Shown in pieces: positions 3,201 to 62,156 of a stretch of DNA of 64,000 nt. A model generated the notes under the pieces. That model worked only from the letters and a program-made list of their open reading frames with translations. It had not been told where the DNA came from and made no database searches. The translations under genes and the position numbers were made by a program. Within the stretch, counting starts at the first letter, position 1, and every line of letters starts with the position of its first letter. The stretch is from a virus. The DNA lies in the IMG/VR virus record IMGVR_UViG_3300037264_008423, positions 124,001-188,000 of that record, one strand, 5' to 3'.

Positions 3201-4766
3201 TTATTGTGGCATGATGAGCAGATTAAAGCCCTGCCCCTGGAGCAGTATGCCGTTGGTGCCCAGCGGCACAGGCGTCGGCGGCGCGTTGGTGGTCGGCGGC
3301 GGGGTAGCCTCGCCTGGGCGCGACCTTAAAACGAAGGCATTGAACAGCGGTCCGGTGTGCGCGGGGGCGCTCGGCAGCCCATCAGGTTTGGCCGCCACGC
3401 GCCCACCCAGGGGCAGCGTGATGGGCTGACCCGTGTATTTGCCCGTAGCCACCGGACCGGCAAACCAATTTTGGGCGTCGCGAACCTCATAGTCCGAGTT
3501 GACGGGAATAGTGGACCCCAGGTTGATGGCGAGCTGCGGTTTAAGGTCCCAGTTGAATACCGCGAGGTTGGCTCGCCCCGTCTCGTAGCGATTGGGCCGG
3601 ATGAAGACCCGGCTGCCGGTTGGCTTACCCTTGGTGTAAACACTGGCGCTGTCGAAGCCCGTCGCGGCCCTCCAATTGGCATAAGTCAGTCCGCGCGACG
3701 CGTTGGTGTAAAACATAAAAGGCAGGTAGGGCGTTTCCAGGCTGTAGTAGGTGTTATAGTTCCAGGTGTGCCGGGTGGGCGACCACGGCAGTTGGGTTTG
3801 GTAGAACTCCAGCAGGTTTCCTGACCGGATAAACGTGTTGCCTATGGCGGTGATGCGCTCCCAGTCCGCGATGCGGCAGAAAACGTGGACAAAATTGTTG
3901 GAAAAGATCAGGTCCAGGCTGCGGCCCAGGACTTCGCCGCACTGGATTCCGCCCAAGGTGTCGTTCGGGAAGTAGAATATATTGTTTACAATCTTTATGT
4001 CCTGGGGCGGATCGCCGCCGTAGATGACAAATTCCCGCGCATTACCCGCGCGCGAAAGGCTGCCATTGTTAAAGGCAATATTGCCGTCCACCAGGTAGTG
4101 GCGCAGAAAAGCGGCGCTGGAGCCGTAAATCTGGATGCCATGATCGTAGCTGTTGAAGACGATGTTCTCCTCGATCTGTTTGCGCCCGGTGTTGTTTTGG
4201 GAATAAACTCCGTGCCCGTGTCCCCGGTCGGAACCTTGGAAGCCGTTATTGTAGATGACGCAGCCGTAAAGGAAGGAATCCGGGCCTTCCGTCCACAGGC
4301 ACGCGCCGTTGCCCAGCGTGTCGTGGATGATCAGGTTGACCAGGCCCACTCCGGGCGCTCTGATATTCAGGGCATCCAACGTTTTTAAATCGGAGGGCCA
4401 TGACCCTGGCTGGCTGGAAGTGTGGTTGGTTTGCCCACCCGCCACTTCAAAGTCGCGGTAGATGACATAGCCGCCTGAGTTTTGGGCAATGCCGCCCACC
4501 ACCCTGGCCCACTCGTTAGTGTGCGAGCGCACGGTAATAGGCAGGGAAGCGTTCCCGGCCAGCGTGCTGTAGAAAATGCCGGTGTAGGACCCGCTCCGCA
4601 GCCAGAGGGTATCGCCCGGCTTTAAACCGGCTTCGAGACCGGTTTGCAGCCCAAAAGGGGCGCTGACACTGCCGGTGCCCGTGCCGCCAGGGGCGGCGTA
4701 GAAATTGGCGGCCAGTGCCGTGCCTGCGCACGCCAGCCCCACGATCAGAGTTAAGATTGATTTCAT
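3201..4766 (-). CDS. secreted right-handed beta-helix (pectate-lyase-like) protein
   Basis: 521 residues. The N-terminus is a textbook Sec signal peptide: MKSILTLIVGLACAGTALA, with cleavage after ALA at residue 19. Mature residues about 20-330 contain the Asn-rich rungs of a right-handed parallel beta-helix (NNGF, NIAFNNGS, IVNNIFYF, IGNTFIRSG), and the opening FYAAPGGTGTGSVSAPF is typical of secreted DUF1565/Pel-like proteins. The C-terminal 120 residues are beta-rich, ending with a Pro/Thr linker (TPPPTTNAPPTPVP) and a hydrophobic tail. Proteins of this kind bind or cleave polysaccharides. I see no definite lyase catalytic set. A cleavable signal peptide suggests action outside the infected cell rather than as a virion tailspike. 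Preceded by a short divergent promoter region (4767-4828). Confidence 0.75.
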   Translation of the reverse strand: MKSILTLIVGLACAGTALAANFYAAPGGTGTGSVSAPFGLQTGLEAGLKPGDTLWLRSGSYTGIFYSTLAGNASLPITVRSHTNEWARVVGGIAQNSGGYVIYRDFEVAGGQTNHTSSQPGSWPSDLKTLDALNIRAPGVGLVNLIIHDTLGNGACLWTEGPDSFLYGCVIYNNGFQGSDRGHGHGVYSQNNTGRKQIEENIVFNSYDHGIQIYGSSAAFLRHYLVDGNIAFNNGSLSRAGNAREFVIYGGDPPQDIKIVNNIFYFPNDTLGGIQCGEVLGRSLDLIFSNNFVHVFCRIADWERITAIGNTFIRSGNLLEFYQTQLPWSPTRHTWNYNTYYSLETPYLPFMFYTNASRGLTYANWRAATGFDSASVYTKGKPTGSRVFIRPNRYETGRANLAVFNWDLKPQLAINLGSTIPVNSDYEVRDAQNWFAGPVATGKYTGQPITLPLGGRVAAKPDGLPSAPAHTGPLFNAFVLRSRPGEATPPPTTNAPPTPVPLGTNGILLQGQGFNLLIMPQ

Positions 4767-11737: not shown

Positions 11738-12778
11738 TCAGCTTACGACAATTTGATAAGTTCCGGTCAGCAGGTTATCGGACCGATACAGGTTATAGCT
11801 GCTTGCGTAACCGGAAGCATTGGTAAAGGAAATAACCGTCAAAGTCCAGGCGGTATTGGGCAGCCCGTTGACCGTGAACGTGGCCGCGCCCCAGGCCGCT
11901 GGATAAGCAAAGTAAACATACTCGGCGGCTGCTGTGAGGGTCCGGCTCTGGCTCCGGCTGCTGGCAAATTCGCCGTTCAGGGCGATGATTTGCGCGTCAT
12001 TCAAGGTGGATTGGTTGGAGACGCCCCAGTAACGCTTGTTACTGAAGCTGATGCTGGTATTGCCGTTGACGGGAGTGGTGCCATCCGTGGCGCTGAGTGT
12101 GTAGGTCCGGTTCGCGGTCCAGGTTCCCGCGTCCGCGTAGCTGCGCTGGGCTACAGGGAGCACCCCGATGCCCTGGTTGATCGACTGACCGGTGACATCC
12201 TTGTTGAACACCCAGTTGAGCGTGACACTGCTGACCGTTTGGCCAATTTCCACCGTGCCGACTGTATTTGTAAACGAAGTCAACTGGAGCGGCACGTAGA
12301 GCAGGTAATTGAGCGCGGCGGCCACGTTCGGGTAATCGAGGCTGGAATAAGGAACATCAACGGCGGAAATCTGGTTGGTTCCGGTGCCGAAGTCAACGTG
12401 GTTGAGATGGACGGTCCGGTCCTCGTCGCGGATGTAGTCCAGCGATCCGACCATCTGGTAAGTGGTCCAGGCCAAGTTGCTGCCGGAGACCGCGATGCTT
12501 TCCACGGCGGCGATCTCGGCCCGGATCTCGACAAAAGGATCGGCGGGTCCCTGGCTGATCATGGCCAGGGCGGACCAGTAGTCGGAATGGTTGCCTTCCG
12601 GGGCGGTGCCGGATACCGAGATTAAGGCAATGTATTTGGCTCCCTGGAAATCAATGGCATCGCGGGGACTATAGGTGCCTGAGTCGGCGTAGGTGCCGCG
12701 CAAGCGCAACTCGGACTCGGCCACGACGGTGCGCCGGTAAAGATGATCCGCGTATGCATATTGGTTTAGAGACGCCAT
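11738..12778 (-). CDS. modular tail fibre protein
   Basis: 346 residues from ATG 12778 (MASLNQYAYADHLYRRT). The first 75 residues are homologous to the N-terminus of the long fibre gene at 13530-14957 (RGTYADSGTYSPRDAIDFQG aligns with RGTWAPGTLYAPPWESVSHG). Residues 190-240 contain VTLNWVFNKDVTGQSINQGI, and the last 100 residues contain KRYWGVSNQSTLNDAQI and YVYFAYPAAWGAATFTVNGL. These C-terminal modules are widespread in tail appendages of T4-like and other phages. Probably a trimeric fibre or baseplate appendage. No chaperone or protease domain is visible. Confidence 0.75.
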   Translation of the reverse strand: MASLNQYAYADHLYRRTVVAESELRLRGTYADSGTYSPRDAIDFQGAKYIALISVSGTAPEGNHSDYWSALAMISQGPADPFVEIRAEIAAVESIAVSGSNLAWTTYQMVGSLDYIRDEDRTVHLNHVDFGTGTNQISAVDVPYSSLDYPNVAAALNYLLYVPLQLTSFTNTVGTVEIGQTVSSVTLNWVFNKDVTGQSINQGIGVLPVAQRSYADAGTWTANRTYTLSATDGTTPVNGNTSISFSNKRYWGVSNQSTLNDAQIIALNGEFASSRSQSRTLTAAAEYVYFAYPAAWGAATFTVNGLPNTAWTLTVISFTNASGYASSYNLYRSDNLLTGTYQIVVS

Positions 12779-59696: not shown

Positions 59697-59770
59697 GCGG
59701 GTATGGTCTAACAGCAGAACGAGGCGGTGCCAGCGCTTAGGTGGGGGTGCGATTCCCCCTACCCGCTCCA
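59697..59770 (+). tRNA. tRNA-Gly(GCC)
   Basis: Acceptor GCGGGTA pairs with TACCCGC, discriminator T, CCA encoded. Anticodon loop GTGCCAG on stem AGGCG/CGCTT gives GCC (codon GGC). T-arm GGGGG-TGCGATT-CCCCC: position 55 is G instead of T. D-loop AACAGCA has A-G instead of G18-G19. The D-stem is weak (GTCT/GAAC, one mismatch). 74 nt. Confidence 0.85.
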
Positions 59771-59780
59771 AATTTAGAAT

Positions 59781-59848
59781 GCTACCGGTCTCAACGGTGA
59801 CGTGATTCAGACCACTGAGTCATCCGAGTTCTATCCTCGGCGGCTGCA
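59781..59848 (+). tRNA. tRNA-like element, anticodon arm not canonical
   Basis: A perfect T-arm CCGAG-TTCTATC-CTCGG (canonical T54-T55-C56) precedes CGGCTGC-A and then CCG rather than CCA. The 5' side GCTACCG pairs with CGGCTGC at five of seven positions. The D-loop contains GG. In place of a 5-bp/7-nt anticodon arm there is an 8-bp hairpin TGATTCAG-ACCA-CTGAGTCA with a 4-nt loop. No anticodon can be assigned. It may be a degenerate tRNA, a pseudo-tRNA or a tRNA mimic. Confidence 0.4.
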
Positions 59849-59852
59849 CCGT

Positions 59853-59928
59853 GGGGGCGCATGTTCCGTAGCGGCGAGATTGCCTTGCAAGCAAACTGGG
59901 TCGGGTGCGACTCCCGTCACCTCCACCA
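59853..59928 (+). tRNA. tRNA-Ala(TGC), weak D-stem
   Basis: Acceptor GGGGGCG against CACCTCC with the G3-T70 pair that identifies Ala, discriminator A, CCA. Anticodon loop CTTGCAA gives TGC (codon GCA). T-loop TGCGACT (G55). The D-arm is poorly paired (TGTT/GCGA), and acceptor position 6-67 is a C-A mismatch. The D-loop has TAGC, i.e. A18-G19. 76 nt. Confidence 0.7.
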
Positions 59929-59968
59929 AATCTTTTGACAGATTTTTTTGCGCGCGGTAAGGTCAAGT

Positions 59969-60157
59969 ATGAAACGTAAACACTTTCTATATGGCCTGCT
60001 CGCAGGCGCGGCGTCCACTTTAATGCTGGTCTTGTTCCTAGGCGCGGCAGATCCCACTTGGCTGGACATCGCAAGCAGCCTGAAGCGGATCGCCCATTCC
60101 CTGGAGATGATCTCCGGCCAGCGGCCCGGTTGGAAAATTCCATACGCGGGTAAATGA
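59969..60157 (+). CDS. small membrane-anchored protein inside tRNA cluster
   Basis: 62 residues from ATG 59969. MKRKHFLYGLLAGAASTLML then VLFLGAADPTW is a signal-anchor-like segment, followed by an amphipathic helix (LDIASSLKRIAHSLEMISGQ) and a short tail. It lies between tRNA-Ala(TGC) and tRNA-Ala(CGC), five bases before the latter. Function unknown. Confidence 0.55.
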   Translation: MKRKHFLYGLLAGAASTLMLVLFLGAADPTWLDIASSLKRIAHSLEMISGQRPGWKIPYAGK

Positions 60158-60162
60158 CCTTC

Positions 60163-60236
60163 GGGGCCATAGCTCAATAGCAGAGCGGGTCGTTCGCAAC
60201 GACTAGATCGGGGTGCGACTCCCCGTGGTTCCACCA
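60163..60236 (+). tRNA. tRNA-Ala(CGC)
   Basis: Acceptor GGGGCCA/TGGTTCC with G3-T70 (Ala identity), discriminator A, CCA. D-arm GCTC-AATAGCA-GAGC. Anticodon arm GGTCG-TTCGCAA-CGACT gives CGC (codon GCG). T-arm CGGGG-TGCGACT-CCCCG: G55. D-loop A18-G19. Well formed, 74 nt. Confidence 0.9.
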
Positions 60237-60241
60237 GATTT

Positions 60242-60316
60242 CGGCTGCGTAGCTCAATAGCAGAGCGTGCGCGTCACATGCACAAGGAACCCGTGCGATT
60301 CGGGCGTGGCCGACCA
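60242..60316 (+). tRNA. tRNA-Val(CAC) with 8-bp acceptor and 4-bp T-stem
   Basis: CGGCTGCG pairs over eight positions with CGTGGCCG (two wobble pairs), then A and CCA. The T-arm is CCCG-TGCGATT-CGGG, only four pairs, so acceptor plus T-stem still total 12. D-arm GCTC-AATAGCA-GAGC is perfect. Anticodon loop GTCACAT on TGCGC/GCACA (one mismatch) gives CAC (codon GTG). G55 and A18-G19 as in the others. Confidence 0.75.
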
Positions 60317-60332
60317 TTTTGTTCTAAAGCTT

Positions 60333-60776
60333 GTGATCAATAGTAAACAAATCAAAGCTGAATTAGCCGTCATAAAGGTGCAGGAAGCGGCACTTAAAAT
60401 GGGCCGGATATGCAGCAAACCTGTCATTGAAGGGACGCGCTACGATTTGATAGTTGATGACGGTAAGCGTCTTATGCGCGTTCAAGTCAAATACTGTGGT
60501 GGTTATTACGATGGCGTTGTTGCGGTTAAACTTAAAAGTTATGGTAGGCAGGGGGCAGACCGTAGCTATTGCGCCAGTGAAATCGACGCCGTTATAGCCT
60601 ATTCTGATGTGAATGACCGGCTTTATTGTCTGCCGATTACTATGCTAGCGGACAAAACAACCATCCGCTTGCGCCATGCTCGTCCTAGAAACAATCAAAA
60701 GCAGCGGATTTGGCAGGCAGAAGACTTTATATGGGGCTGTAGCTCAAATAGGCAGAGCAGCACGATGGCATCGTGA
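60333..60776 (+). CDS. PD-(D/E)XK homing endonuclease (group I intron-associated type)
   Basis: 147 codons from GTG 60333. It begins MINSKQIKAELAVIKVQEAA, then EGTRYDLIVDDGKRLMRVQV and KY: catalytic Asp in RYDLIV and Q-V-K in place of E-x-K, as in the I-Ssp6803I-like PDDEXK_5 family. AVIAYSDVNDRLYCLPITML then LRHARPRNNQKQRIWQAEDF are the later conserved parts. The frame reads on into the tRNA-Ala(GGC) gene for 44 bases and ends in its anticodon stem, so the nuclease gene and the tRNA overlap. Confidence 0.75.
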   Translation: MINSKQIKAELAVIKVQEAALKMGRICSKPVIEGTRYDLIVDDGKRLMRVQVKYCGGYYDGVVAVKLKSYGRQGADRSYCASEIDAVIAYSDVNDRLYCLPITMLADKTTIRLRHARPRNNQKQRIWQAEDFIWGCSSNRQSSTMAS

Positions 60777-60809
60777 AGGTTGAGGGTGCGATTCCCTTCG
60801 GTTCCACCA
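60733..60809 (+). tRNA. tRNA-Ala(GGC)
   Basis: Acceptor GGGGCTG/CGGTTCC with G3-T70, discriminator A, CCA. D-stem GCTC/GAGC, loop AAATAGGCA. Anticodon loop ATGGCAT on GCACG/CGTGA gives GGC (codon GCC), with a mismatch at 27-43. T-arm GAGGG-TGCGATT-CCCTT: G55. In this D-loop a GG is present, so A18 versus G18 is ambiguous. The 5' half overlaps the endonuclease gene. Confidence 0.85.
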
Positions 60810-60823
60810 ATTTTTGCCAATAA

Positions 60824-61014
60824 GCTGGGCGGTTGATCGAGACTTCCGTCTGGCCGAACGCGGTTACGATCAGCCGGGGGAACCGGTAAAACCTACGGCT
60901 GTTGGGAGCGAGGCTTGCCGAGCAGCAGGCCGCTTTGGCAGTATTTCACGGCACCCAACGTGGGACGGCGGCAGGCCGGTCGTGCGGTCTGTAAACGCGA
61001 CTCCGCCCGTCAGC
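60824..61014 (+). ncRNA. candidate structured RNA between tRNA-Ala and tRNA-Trp
   Basis: Ends close on each other: GCTG-GGCGG (60824-60832) with CCGCC-CGT-CAGC (61003-61014), nine pairs with a 3-nt bulge. Inside are CAGCCG/CGGCTG and GTTGGG/CCCAAC helices and several GC-rich hairpins. No tRNA signature and no convincing reading frame. Helix content in a GC-rich stretch can arise by chance, so confidence is low. Confidence 0.3.
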
Positions 61015-61034
61015 GTAAAACAGGTGCCGTGTTT

Positions 61035-61110
61035 ACGGCAGTAGCTCAATTAGCAGAGCGGCGGTCTCCAAAACCGTTGGTTGGGGGTGCGAGTCCTCCC
61101 TGCCGTGCCA
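61035..61110 (+). tRNA. tRNA-Trp(CCA)
   Basis: Acceptor ACGGCAG/CTGCCGT, discriminator G, CCA. D-arm GCTC-AATTAGCA-GAGC. Anticodon arm GCGGT-CTCCAAA-ACCGT gives CCA (codon TGG). T-arm GGGGG-TGCGAGT-CCTCC: G55. The D-loop has a single G preceded by A (A18-G19). 76 nt, well formed. Confidence 0.92.
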
Positions 61111-61113
61111 TTT

Positions 61114-61353
61114 TTAGCGCGCGGGTTTTACTTTGCGCCGGGCGCGCGCCTTGCTTTTAGCAATGGGCGCTTGTTGGACATAACTCGGACACTTCGGGTT
61201 TTCGCAGTGACCGCCTTTTTTCACCAACCAGCCGCAAGCGCATTGGCTGAAGCAGTCACATTTTAAGAATCCCTGGGTGCCGCACGTGGGACAGACCACC
61301 GTGGCATCGATCAGGCGCTCAATGGCGCTCAAAGGTTTAGTTTGCATCGGCAT
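61114..61353 (-). CDS. small zinc-binding protein opposite the tRNA cluster
   Basis: 79 residues from ATG 61353, the only minus-strand gene in the cluster. VVCPTCGTQGFLKCDCFSQC then ACGWLVKKGGHCENPKCPSY holds ten Cys plus one His in paired arrangement, followed by a basic tail (KSKARARRKVKPAR) that suggests nucleic-acid binding. Ends 3 bases from tRNA-Trp. Confidence 0.6.
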   Translation of the reverse strand: MPMQTKPLSAIERLIDATVVCPTCGTQGFLKCDCFSQCACGWLVKKGGHCENPKCPSYVQQAPIAKSKARARRKVKPAR

Positions 61354-61377
61354 ACACTAAGTCATAGAATCAATTTT

Positions 61378-61464
61378 ACCCACAGTCCAGAAAGAGTGGA
61401 GGAAGGTCCCTACGCGCCACAGCGGAAGTAACGGGGCCAGGACCACAGTGGTTTGGACTGGGGT
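61378..61464 (+). ncRNA. candidate structured RNA before tRNA-Tyr
   Basis: An 11-bp closing helix pairs ACCC-A-CAGTCCA (61378-61389) with TGGACTG-GGGT (61454-61464), with one bulged A. Inside, GGTCC can pair with GGACC, and the strand GGAGGAAGGTCC is close to the GAGGAAAGUCC element of RNase P RNA. The rest of RNase P is missing. It ends 5 bases before tRNA-Tyr. Confidence 0.35.
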
Positions 61465-61468
61465 GAAC

Positions 61469-61556
61469 GGGCGTGTGACCGGAGCAGCAATCGGCACGGG
61501 CTGTAAACCCGTCGGCCTAAAAACCTACGCAGGTGCGAGTCCTGCCACGCCCCCCA
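61469..61556 (+). tRNA. tRNA-Tyr(GTA), class II
   Basis: Acceptor GGGCGTG pairs perfectly with CACGCCC; discriminator C, CCA. D-arm CCG-GAGCAGCAAT-CGG. Anticodon arm ACGGG-CTGTAAA-CCCGT gives GTA. A long variable region CGGCCTAAAAACCTAC is as expected for bacterial Tyr. T-arm GCAGG-TGCGAGT-CCTGC: G55. GAGCAGC replaces the usual GAGCGGC, so position 18 is A. Discriminator C is unusual (A in bacteria). Confidence 0.88.
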
Positions 61557-61562
61557 TTTTAA

Positions 61563-61650
61563 GCGCCGTAGCTCAGAGGCAGAGCAAACCCAAAGCCTGT
61601 AACCAGGTGAGCGGTGGGGATGAGAGGTTCGAGTCCAATCCGGCGCACCA
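61563..61650 (+). tRNA. tRNA-like element with canonical T-loop, odd anticodon arm
   Basis: GCGCCG pairs with CGGCGC, then A and CCA; D-arm GCTC-AGAGGCA-GAGC is perfect and has G18-G19; T-loop TTCGAGT has T55. The T-stem is weak (AGAGG/CCAAT). Between D and T arms is a hairpin GCCTG-TAAC-CAGGT instead of a 7-nt anticodon loop, then a long purine-rich stretch. No anticodon can be given. 88 nt, the size of a class II tRNA. It may be degenerate, or need re-folding with a model. Confidence 0.45.
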
Positions 61651-61679
61651 TTCTTCCGTCTGGCGGTGTAATTAAAGGC

Positions 61680-62102
61680 ATGAACAGCAAGATTATCGGG
61701 GATATTTCCGAAGCATCCGTAATTGCGGCTCTTTTAAAATCGGGTTTGAACGTGTTAATGCCTTTCGGTGACAGGAACAGGTATGATATCGTGATTGAAC
61801 ATGACGGAAAATTTGAACGTGTGCAGATAAAAACAGGTAGGCAGCGCGGGAGAGTTATAGTCTATAATACACAGAGTTCAACTCGCGTTAACGGCAAACG
61901 GTGTGAATTAGGCTACCAAGGCCAAGTTGAAACTTTTGCGGTTTATCACCGTGAGCTGGATCGGGTCTATATGGTTCCTGTCGGTAAAGCAGCTACCGGT
62001 AAAGGGAGTTTGCGCTTGGGGCCTAAAGGCGGTTCTGGTGTAGGACCAAGATGCCTTTACGCTGATGACTATATTTTAAGGAGCGTTAGCTCAGTCCAGT
62101 AG
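61680..62102 (+). CDS. second PD-(D/E)XK homing endonuclease
   Basis: 140 residues from ATG 61680. It is homologous to the gene at 60333: MNSKIIGDISEASVIAALLK, then RYDIVIEHDGKFERVQIKTG with the catalytic Asp and Q-I-K, and FAVYHRELDRVYMVPVGKAA. The C-terminus runs through the first 23 bases of tRNA-Asp, with the TAG inside the tRNA's D-loop. The first gene shows the same overlap with the tRNA that follows it. Confidence 0.75.
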   Translation: MNSKIIGDISEASVIAALLKSGLNVLMPFGDRNRYDIVIEHDGKFERVQIKTGRQRGRVIVYNTQSSTRVNGKRCELGYQGQVETFAVYHRELDRVYMVPVGKAATGKGSLRLGPKGGSGVGPRCLYADDYILRSVSSVQ

Positions 62103-62156
62103 AGCAATCGACTGTCTATCGAAAGGTCAGGGGAGCAAAGCCCCTACGCTCCGCCA
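62080..62156 (+). tRNA. tRNA-Asp(GTC)
   Basis: Acceptor GGAGCGT/ACGCTCC, discriminator G (Asp identity), CCA. D-stem GCTC/GAGC, loop AGTCCAGTA (A18-G19). Anticodon loop CTGTCTA gives GTC (codon GAC). T-arm AGGGG-AGCAAAG-CCCCT: A54, G55, C56. The anticodon stem has one mismatch at 27-43. 77 nt. Confidence 0.85.

Follow-up and report, generated by a model that had tools for sequence, protein, structure and literature searches.

Covarying elbow contacts in the transfer RNAs of a jumbo phage array and its relatives

The tRNA array and its phage relatives

The stretch of DNA analyzed here, hereafter the window, comprises 64,000 nucleotides (bases 124001-188000) of the 238,436-base IMG/VR virus record IMGVR_UViG_3300037264_008423 (G000), a jumbo myophage which encodes a DNA polymerase, a baseplate wedge protein, a Gp23-like capsid protein and a prohead protease. 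Positions 59697-62156 of the window hold eight transfer RNAs (tRNAs), which form the start of a plus-strand array of approximately 30 tRNAs reaching about position 212,176 of the record. These tRNAs depart from the canonical elbow, in which G18 contacts Ψ55 and G19 pairs with C56. An earlier note on this DNA had proposed that positions 18 and 55 switch together throughout the phage set, G-U giving way to A-G.

The first of these tRNAs, tRNA-Gly(GCC) (59697..59770), has the D-loop AACAGCA, with A18 and G19, the T-loop TGCGATT, with G55 and C56, and an encoded CCA end; it was recovered by ARAGORN, by cmscan (45.4 bits) and by a structure-only search. The same three methods identified tRNA-Ala(CGC) (60163..60236; AATAGCA, TGCGACT, A18-G55, G3-U70), tRNA-Trp(CCA) (61035..61110; AATTAGCA, TGCGAGT, A18-G55; cmscan 61.1 bits) and tRNA-Tyr(GTA) (61469..61556; GAGCAGCAA, TGCGAGT, A18-G55, long variable arm), while tRNA-Val(CAC) (60242..60316; AATAGCA, TGCGATT, A18-G55), which has a T stem of four base pairs, was found by ARAGORN and cmscan. 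Two further tRNAs were detected by cmscan and the structure-only search: tRNA-Ala(GGC) (60733..60809; AAATAGGCA, TGCGATT, G3-U70; 49.5 bits), which is read as A18-G19 because of the clade-wide 18–55 rule described below, and tRNA-Asp(GTC) (62080..62156; AGTCCAGTA, AGCAAAG; 51.3 bits), which combines A18-G55 with A54. The eighth, an irregular tRNA-Ala(TGC) at about 59853..59928, has a weak D arm, the T-loop TGCGACT (G55), G3-U70 and an encoded CCA; it was read from the sequence and missed by ARAGORN and Rfam. All others pass the Rfam tRNA gathering score (7/8), and ARAGORN recovers 5/8.

G55 is thus present in all eight tRNAs, as the earlier note had stated, with T-loops reading TGCGAYT, TGCGAGT or AGCAAAG. 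Its claim of A-G at positions 18 and 19 in seven of them stands for six, which are unambiguous; Ala(GGC) is ambiguous taken alone, as had been said, and the D arm of Ala(TGC) is poor. Two irregular elements with GG and T55 had also been described. One of them was confirmed, the plus-strand tRNA-like RNA at 61563..61650, read from the sequence and folded, which has an irregular middle, a canonical elbow (AGAGGCA, TTCGAGT) and an encoded CCA.

Across the record, cmscan reported 25 tRNAs, and matches above 29 bits to the RF00005 covariance model number 7 in the window and 24 in the record. Since tRNA finders rely on loop letters, a structure-only search was written in which stem pairing is scored and loop letters are ignored; it misses long-armed and irregular tRNAs. 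Between record positions 183500 and 223000 it returned 29 CCA-ended tRNAs, against none with CCA in 10 shuffles, and the array tRNAs are therefore not due to chance. Their T-loops later in the array include ATCGAAG, TGAGAAT, TGGGAGT, AGTGTTA and TGTGAAT. Gene finders thus overlook many phage tRNAs. A change of genetic code in G000 was also considered and is unsupported, coding density being already high under the standard code.

Searching viral contigs with the DNA polymerase revealed relatives at 40-52% identity. Large, near-complete tRNA arrays like that of G000 occur in G001 (and its near-duplicate G006), G004, G005 and G011, while G003, G010, G012 and G014, from the same clade, have one to four tRNAs each, all with T54-T55-C56; many of the relatives' records are fragments, so that a low tRNA count is no proof of absence. 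The structure-only search yielded 177 tRNAs from G000, G001, G004, G005 and G011, which constitute the pooled set used below.

Among these 177 tRNAs, much of the consensus is kept: G53-C61 in 175, R57 in 176, R37 in 172, U8 in 163, A14 in 159 and U33, otherwise near-universal, in 158, with C33 in 18 and A33 in one (in G000, G001, G005 and G011). At the elbow, retention is 51 for U55, 123 for U54 and 148 for C56. Because the remaining consensus is largely conserved, the tRNA fold, and with it the L-shape, is presumably retained. With superwobble, the arrays cover 57/61 sense codons in G005 and 59/61 in G011, and 44-52 in the other array phages, as counted with a conservative finder; ARAGORN detects additional tRNAs.

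It could be argued that such RNAs are pseudogenes or non-decoding, tRNA-like decoys, as ARAGORN finds only five of the eight in the window and some array RNAs are not regular tRNAs. This explanation is hardly credible, given the full stems, the CCA encoded in nearly all array tRNAs, the near-complete codon coverage and the identity elements, namely G3-U70 in Ala, C73 in His and C1xA72 in initiator tRNAs, and A20, a known ArgRS determinant, in many Arg tRNAs. In addition, the tRNA-Ile(GAU) of phage T5, with an A19-U56 pair (G18 A19 with U55 U56), is annotated in its record as convertible to an amber suppressor by an anticodon change. The array tRNAs are thus likely active in decoding, and the kept stems, CCA ends and identity elements, together with a change specific to the elbow, support selection, which the earlier note had suggested, over decay. 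The agents that this note put forward, a tRNA-cleaving host defense, independence from TruB or altered handling by EF-Tu, are candidates.

Covariation at 18–55 and 19–56

To read position 18, the D-loop register was set by 19–56 pairing alone, which was usable in 132/177 tRNAs; longer D-loops, ambiguous in 40/177, were excluded from the table of 18 against 55. In these 132 tRNAs, the 18–55 combination is A-G in 111, G-U in 12, G-C in two, C-G in three, U-G in three, G-G in one and A-U in none. The association is strong in the five phages (Fisher p = 8e-16), although tRNAs within one genome are kin and p-values here overstate independence. G at position 18 of the window tRNAs, the alternative considered in the earlier note, was tested for and not found. 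Pairing of a pyrimidine at position 20 with G55 was rejected as a general rule replacing A18-G55: 18 of the 111 A18-G55 tRNAs have A as base 20, and A18 is present in 111 of the 118 fixed-register tRNAs with G55.

Similarly, the 19–56 pair is Watson-Crick in 172/177 tRNAs, against 139±3 after permutation of T-loops within genomes, and none of 5000 permutations reached 172. All of G-C, C-G, U-A and A-U are seen in the array phages. The type at 18–55 is independent of that at 19–56, as C19-G56 occurs both with A18-G55 (8) and with G18-U55 (5). The G19-C56 pair, described earlier as kept, is so within the window; later in the array and in relatives, this pair changes with compensation. Such 19–56 swaps, or bases other than C at 56, concentrate in Arg and Ser tRNAs (22/35 versus 7/142 in others, p = 2e-13). 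At 54–58, the variants are A-A, A-U or G-G. Collectively, the register-fixed table and the permutation test strongly support a switch of 18–55 as a unit, and it is well supported, from sequence comparison, that the elbow has two covarying tertiary pairs: 18–55 passes from G-U to A-G, rarely to G-C, while 19–56 independently stays Watson-Crick.

The same exchange recurs elsewhere, and this recurrence in unrelated phages is a stronger argument for covariation than the p-values. In unrelated viral loci and cultured phages, 18–55 is A-G in 22 tRNAs, G-U in 111, G-C in two and A-U in two; the control loci were retrieved with a canonical tRNA as bait, which was left out of the counts. Altered elbows were found in 18/151 tRNAs of the unrelated viral loci, in 13/28 of the mixed array of G023 (L256), in whose record no relative of the window DNA polymerase was found, and as single cases in T5 and in Jay2Jay, a Streptomyces phage, where a lone A18/G55 tRNA-His (L263:32333-32406; NC_029098 95456-95529; T-loop GGCAGTA) lies among canonical ones. 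A first, stricter pattern scan of viral contigs gave no matches; a loosened one gave nine stretches (L053-L061, with two pairs alike) that carry the A18/G55 signature but have odd anticodon arms or middles and no CCA.

That such elbows are simply normal for the host lineage was addressed indirectly and is not favored: a scan of 84,980 cellular species genomes for one common A18/G55 signature, a pattern which represents one D-stem class, gave 13 stretches, 11 from archaea (mostly Micrarchaeota and Woesearchaeota), one from Verrucomicrobia and one on a contig of a deltaproteobacterial metagenome-assembled genome (MAG). The archaeal A18/G55 tRNAs of Micrarchaeota, Woesearchaeota and a Marsarchaeota MAG (L082, L083, L085-L091, L093, L094) apparently bear introns. 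On a Verrucomicrobia MAG contig (L084, JAKLFY010000030.1, 2871-3662), the variable arms are unusually long in the A18/G55 tRNAs for Gly, Asp and Pro.

Among open-access papers, none was found that treats phage tRNAs with altered elbows; in vitro and in vivo selections of D- and T-loops have reportedly been described.

Signature loss, Ro60 and the candidate selective agent

The minimal substrate of TruB is GUUYRANYC (PMC7912444). This motif, at positions 53-61, is present in 11/177 array-phage tRNAs versus 8/9 in same-clade phages with few tRNAs. Its UUYRA core is lost in 165/177 array-phage tRNAs; it is found in 131/139 tRNAs of unrelated phage arrays (G023 excluded), 15/28 in G023, 27/28 in Jay2Jay and 30/30 in Pumpernickel. 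T54-T55-C56 is absent in 166/177 and present in 11/177, and GG occurs at any place of the D-loop in 47/177. The claim that the whole phage set is altered thus holds for the regular array tRNAs, with 11/177 exceptions, and not for the amber suppressors, most irregular tRNA-like RNAs or the Y RNA-like elements described below.

The routes to this loss differ. A18-G55 is the main solution in G000, G004, G005 and G011, while G001 mostly keeps G18-U55 but has A54, its remaining tRNAs swapping 19–56 or carrying C55, and one anticodon can have different solutions in different phages. Every variant type, including A54, G55 or C55, R56 and non-A58, breaks GUUYRANYC. The tRNAs of G001 that have a lesion at 54 almost never have one at 55/56 as well (both in one tRNA, a single lesion in 25 and 11, none in three; p = 1.7e-6), and over the five phages 12 lesion-free tRNAs were observed against 21.3±1.9 expected. 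Owing to the alternative lesions of G001, what the array phages share is loss of the UUYRA/GG signature and not loss of G18-Ψ55 as such. This pattern is the expected outcome of selection to lose the signature by any route, and does not indicate the identity of its reader.

A founder effect, in which one ancestral A18-G55 tRNA was amplified and changed its anticodon while its elbow was inherited, would fit the dominance of A18-G55 in 4/5 arrays and the finding that the best stem match in another phage is for the same amino acid in 253/554 cases only. It is very improbable, since stems with the same anticodon are more alike across phages (0.56) than are stems for different amino acids in one phage (0.44), identity elements agree with the amino acid, isoacceptors differ in elbow solution by phage and all four 19–56 pairs occur.

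The array of G000 also contains a Ro60 gene (record 205450-207144; L027:2051-3745), with a PF05731/TROVE and a Ro60 vWA domain (2.5e-47 and 2.2e-53). Ro60 belongs to known RNA-repair operons which respond to tRNA cleavage (PMC7790460). It is present in all five altered-array phages and was not found in G002, G003, G010, G012 and G014 of the same clade; RtcB was not found in the five array phages. As a cause of the altered elbows Ro60 was rejected, cultured Ro60 array phages being canonical, so that Ro60 tracks the array and not the elbow. Both Ro60 and RtcB are encoded on a 15 kb contig, bacterial or viral, of a Verrucomicrobia MAG (G017:C39, L095), with 15 tRNAs, none of which has UUYRA; 21/21 other sampled tRNAs of this MAG are canonical.

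Permuted tRNA-like elements, in the order T arm, acceptor and D arm, lie in the arrays and fit Y RNAs (L027:1197-1249 and L027:8293-8353, one A18/G55 and one canonical). The best match to the YrlA model RF02553 in G000 scores 36.6 bits, below the gathering score of 69, while the permuted order and the adjoining Ro60 gene fit this kind of RNA. Across the array phages, 5/6 of these elements have canonical elbows, the exception being the A18/G55 element of G000, versus 11/177 tRNAs (p = 1.5e-5). Canonical elbows are likewise found in amber (CTA) suppressor tRNAs outside the arrays of G001, G004 and G011 (L045:868-937, minus strand; L047:1082-1153; L078:838-909).

Other tRNA-like RNAs with canonical elbows share a middle of common design, of 78-92 bases (L046, minus strand, 3209-3340 and 3783-3908; L049, minus strand, 12489-12628). 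Between the window tRNAs lie two plus-strand open reading frames for PD-(D/E)XK (PDDEXK_5) endonucleases, at 60267..60776 (L026:768-1277; Pfam 2.2e-20) and 61614..62102 (L026:2115-2603; Pfam 9.1e-30).

The main rival to escape from a tRNA-inactivating effector holds that the phage tRNAs avoid, or are independent of, the enzymes TruB and TrmA/TrmFO, which modify the T arm; Ψ55, m5U54 or linked handling would be avoided with no nuclease involved. The benefit would be unclear, as absence of Ψ55 is usually a mild defect, and the Y RNA-like elements of the same arrays retain the motif. In its favor, all kinds of lesion break GUUYRANYC, which is left in only 11/177 tRNAs. Furthermore, 19–56 swaps alter the sequence and presumably leave intact the flat stacking face on which shape-readers rely (PMC4810234), which favors a sequence-specific reader such as TruB/TrmA. 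We judge this rival unlikely, although a modification enzyme and a nuclease which reads the same letters look alike in sequence data.

Alternatively, constraint may have been relaxed, compensated elbow changes being tolerated and accumulating neutrally. Sporadic altered elbows do occur in unrelated phages (the 18/151 in viral loci, the 13/28 in G023 and the single T5 and Jay2Jay cases), and U33, A21 and R15-Y48 are less conserved too. Such drift is nevertheless quite unlikely: the change is focused on 54, 55, 56, 18 and 19 and has gone almost to completion in five phages, and canonical elbows are seen in phages of the same clade with few tRNAs. It is also made less likely by the canonical Y RNA-like elements, which like the amber suppressors stand in the same genomes, and by the lesion pattern, lesion-free tRNAs being fewer than independence predicts.

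Defenses which inactivate tRNAs, and phage tRNAs which evade them, are known (PMC10264068; PMC11555353; PMC12851939), including escape through the anticodon loop (PMC10264068) and retron escape via phage tRNAs (PMC11555353). The covariation being well supported, the selective agent that we infer from it is a reader of the TΨC/GG signature, most likely a tRNA-inactivating defense or host shutoff. The array would then consist of functional replacement tRNAs whose elbow has been rebuilt under selection to escape this reader, a reading to which we give about an even chance. Under this scenario, the clade would be selected to strip the host-tRNA signature (G18 G19 with U54 U55 C56 R57 A58) from its decoding tRNAs, which would go unrecognized by the reader, probably an abortive, tRNA-inactivating defense or a shutoff of the host during infection. 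With near-complete codon coverage, phage translation could draw on the array tRNAs during destruction or inactivation of those of the host. A replacement pool that works during host tRNA inactivation appears to be the most economical account.

Several points weigh against this escape scenario. The cultured Ro60 phages Jay2Jay and Pumpernickel have big arrays with canonical elbows, and a full tRNA set thus does not require the change. The 11/177 canonical tRNAs of the array phages include initiators in G000 and G011 and three amber suppressors, and tRNAs detected only by ARAGORN are more often canonical at the elbow. Constraint is also slightly looser at some other conserved positions (A21 in 143/177, R15-Y48 in 138/177), and it is chiefly from G001 that the mutual exclusivity of lesions derives. 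Finally, no described defense system was found that recognizes the letters of the T-loop: cleavage by most known effectors falls in the anticodon arm, and the contacts of Cas12a3 are with the backbone of the T arm.

A bolder form of the escape scenario is a self/non-self tRNA code, in which the clade, and perhaps Ro60-RtcB arrays like that of G017:C39, would have a full tRNA pool invisible to a pan-tRNA effector reading TΨC/GG, the Y RNA-like elements keeping the signature as decoys or guides. We regard this as possible but, on balance, doubtful. If true, the exchange rules (G-U, A-G or G-C at 18–55; any Watson-Crick pair at 19–56) would constitute an orthogonal elbow alphabet.

Natural covariation at 18–55 and 19–56 is hardly ever seen in cells, so conserved are these positions. 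The present phages supply it, with all four Watson-Crick types at 19–56 and a defined replacement of G18-Ψ55. It thereby becomes testable whether the TΨC loop is universally conserved for the sake of folding or because modification enzymes and nucleases recognize it. These tRNAs also point to a putative elbow-reading effector and offer natural orthogonal tRNA scaffolds.

Comparison with known systems

With the canonical elongator elbow (G18-Ψ55, G19-C56, U54-A58), the array tRNAs share the cloverleaf, the seven-base T-loop, G53-C61, R57, mostly A58, and contacts at 18 and 19; they differ in having mostly A-G at 18–55 and any Watson-Crick pair at 19–56. The staphylococcal peptidoglycan tRNA-Gly has GUGC, with G55, lacks GG and has lost its function in translation. 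G55 is thus common to both, and a G at the second position is familiar in general T-loop motifs. Unlike this tRNA-Gly, the array tRNAs keep A18 and a paired position 19 in register, span all isoacceptors and have intact CCA ends and identity elements.

The Ro60 gene and permuted Y RNA-like elements of the arrays recall the repair modules of Ro60 (Rsr), Y RNA and RtcB (PMC7790460), which also have phage cases (PMC7824862). They differ from these modules in that RtcB was not found in the five array phages, and cultured Ro60 array phages have canonical elbows. The phage tRNAs that escape through the anticodon loop (PMC10264068) are, like the array tRNAs, a phage-encoded set with changes at otherwise conserved positions, and some array tRNAs carry C33; in the array, it is the elbow that is altered, with compensation, and the text of that study makes no mention of T-loop, D-loop or elbow. 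Finally, the general T-loop motif of riboswitches, RNase P and rRNA (PMC4810234) has in common with the array tRNAs the pentaloop, the U-turn and an intercalating base from elsewhere, while the array phages appear to use this motif inside decoding tRNAs, in the stead of U55.

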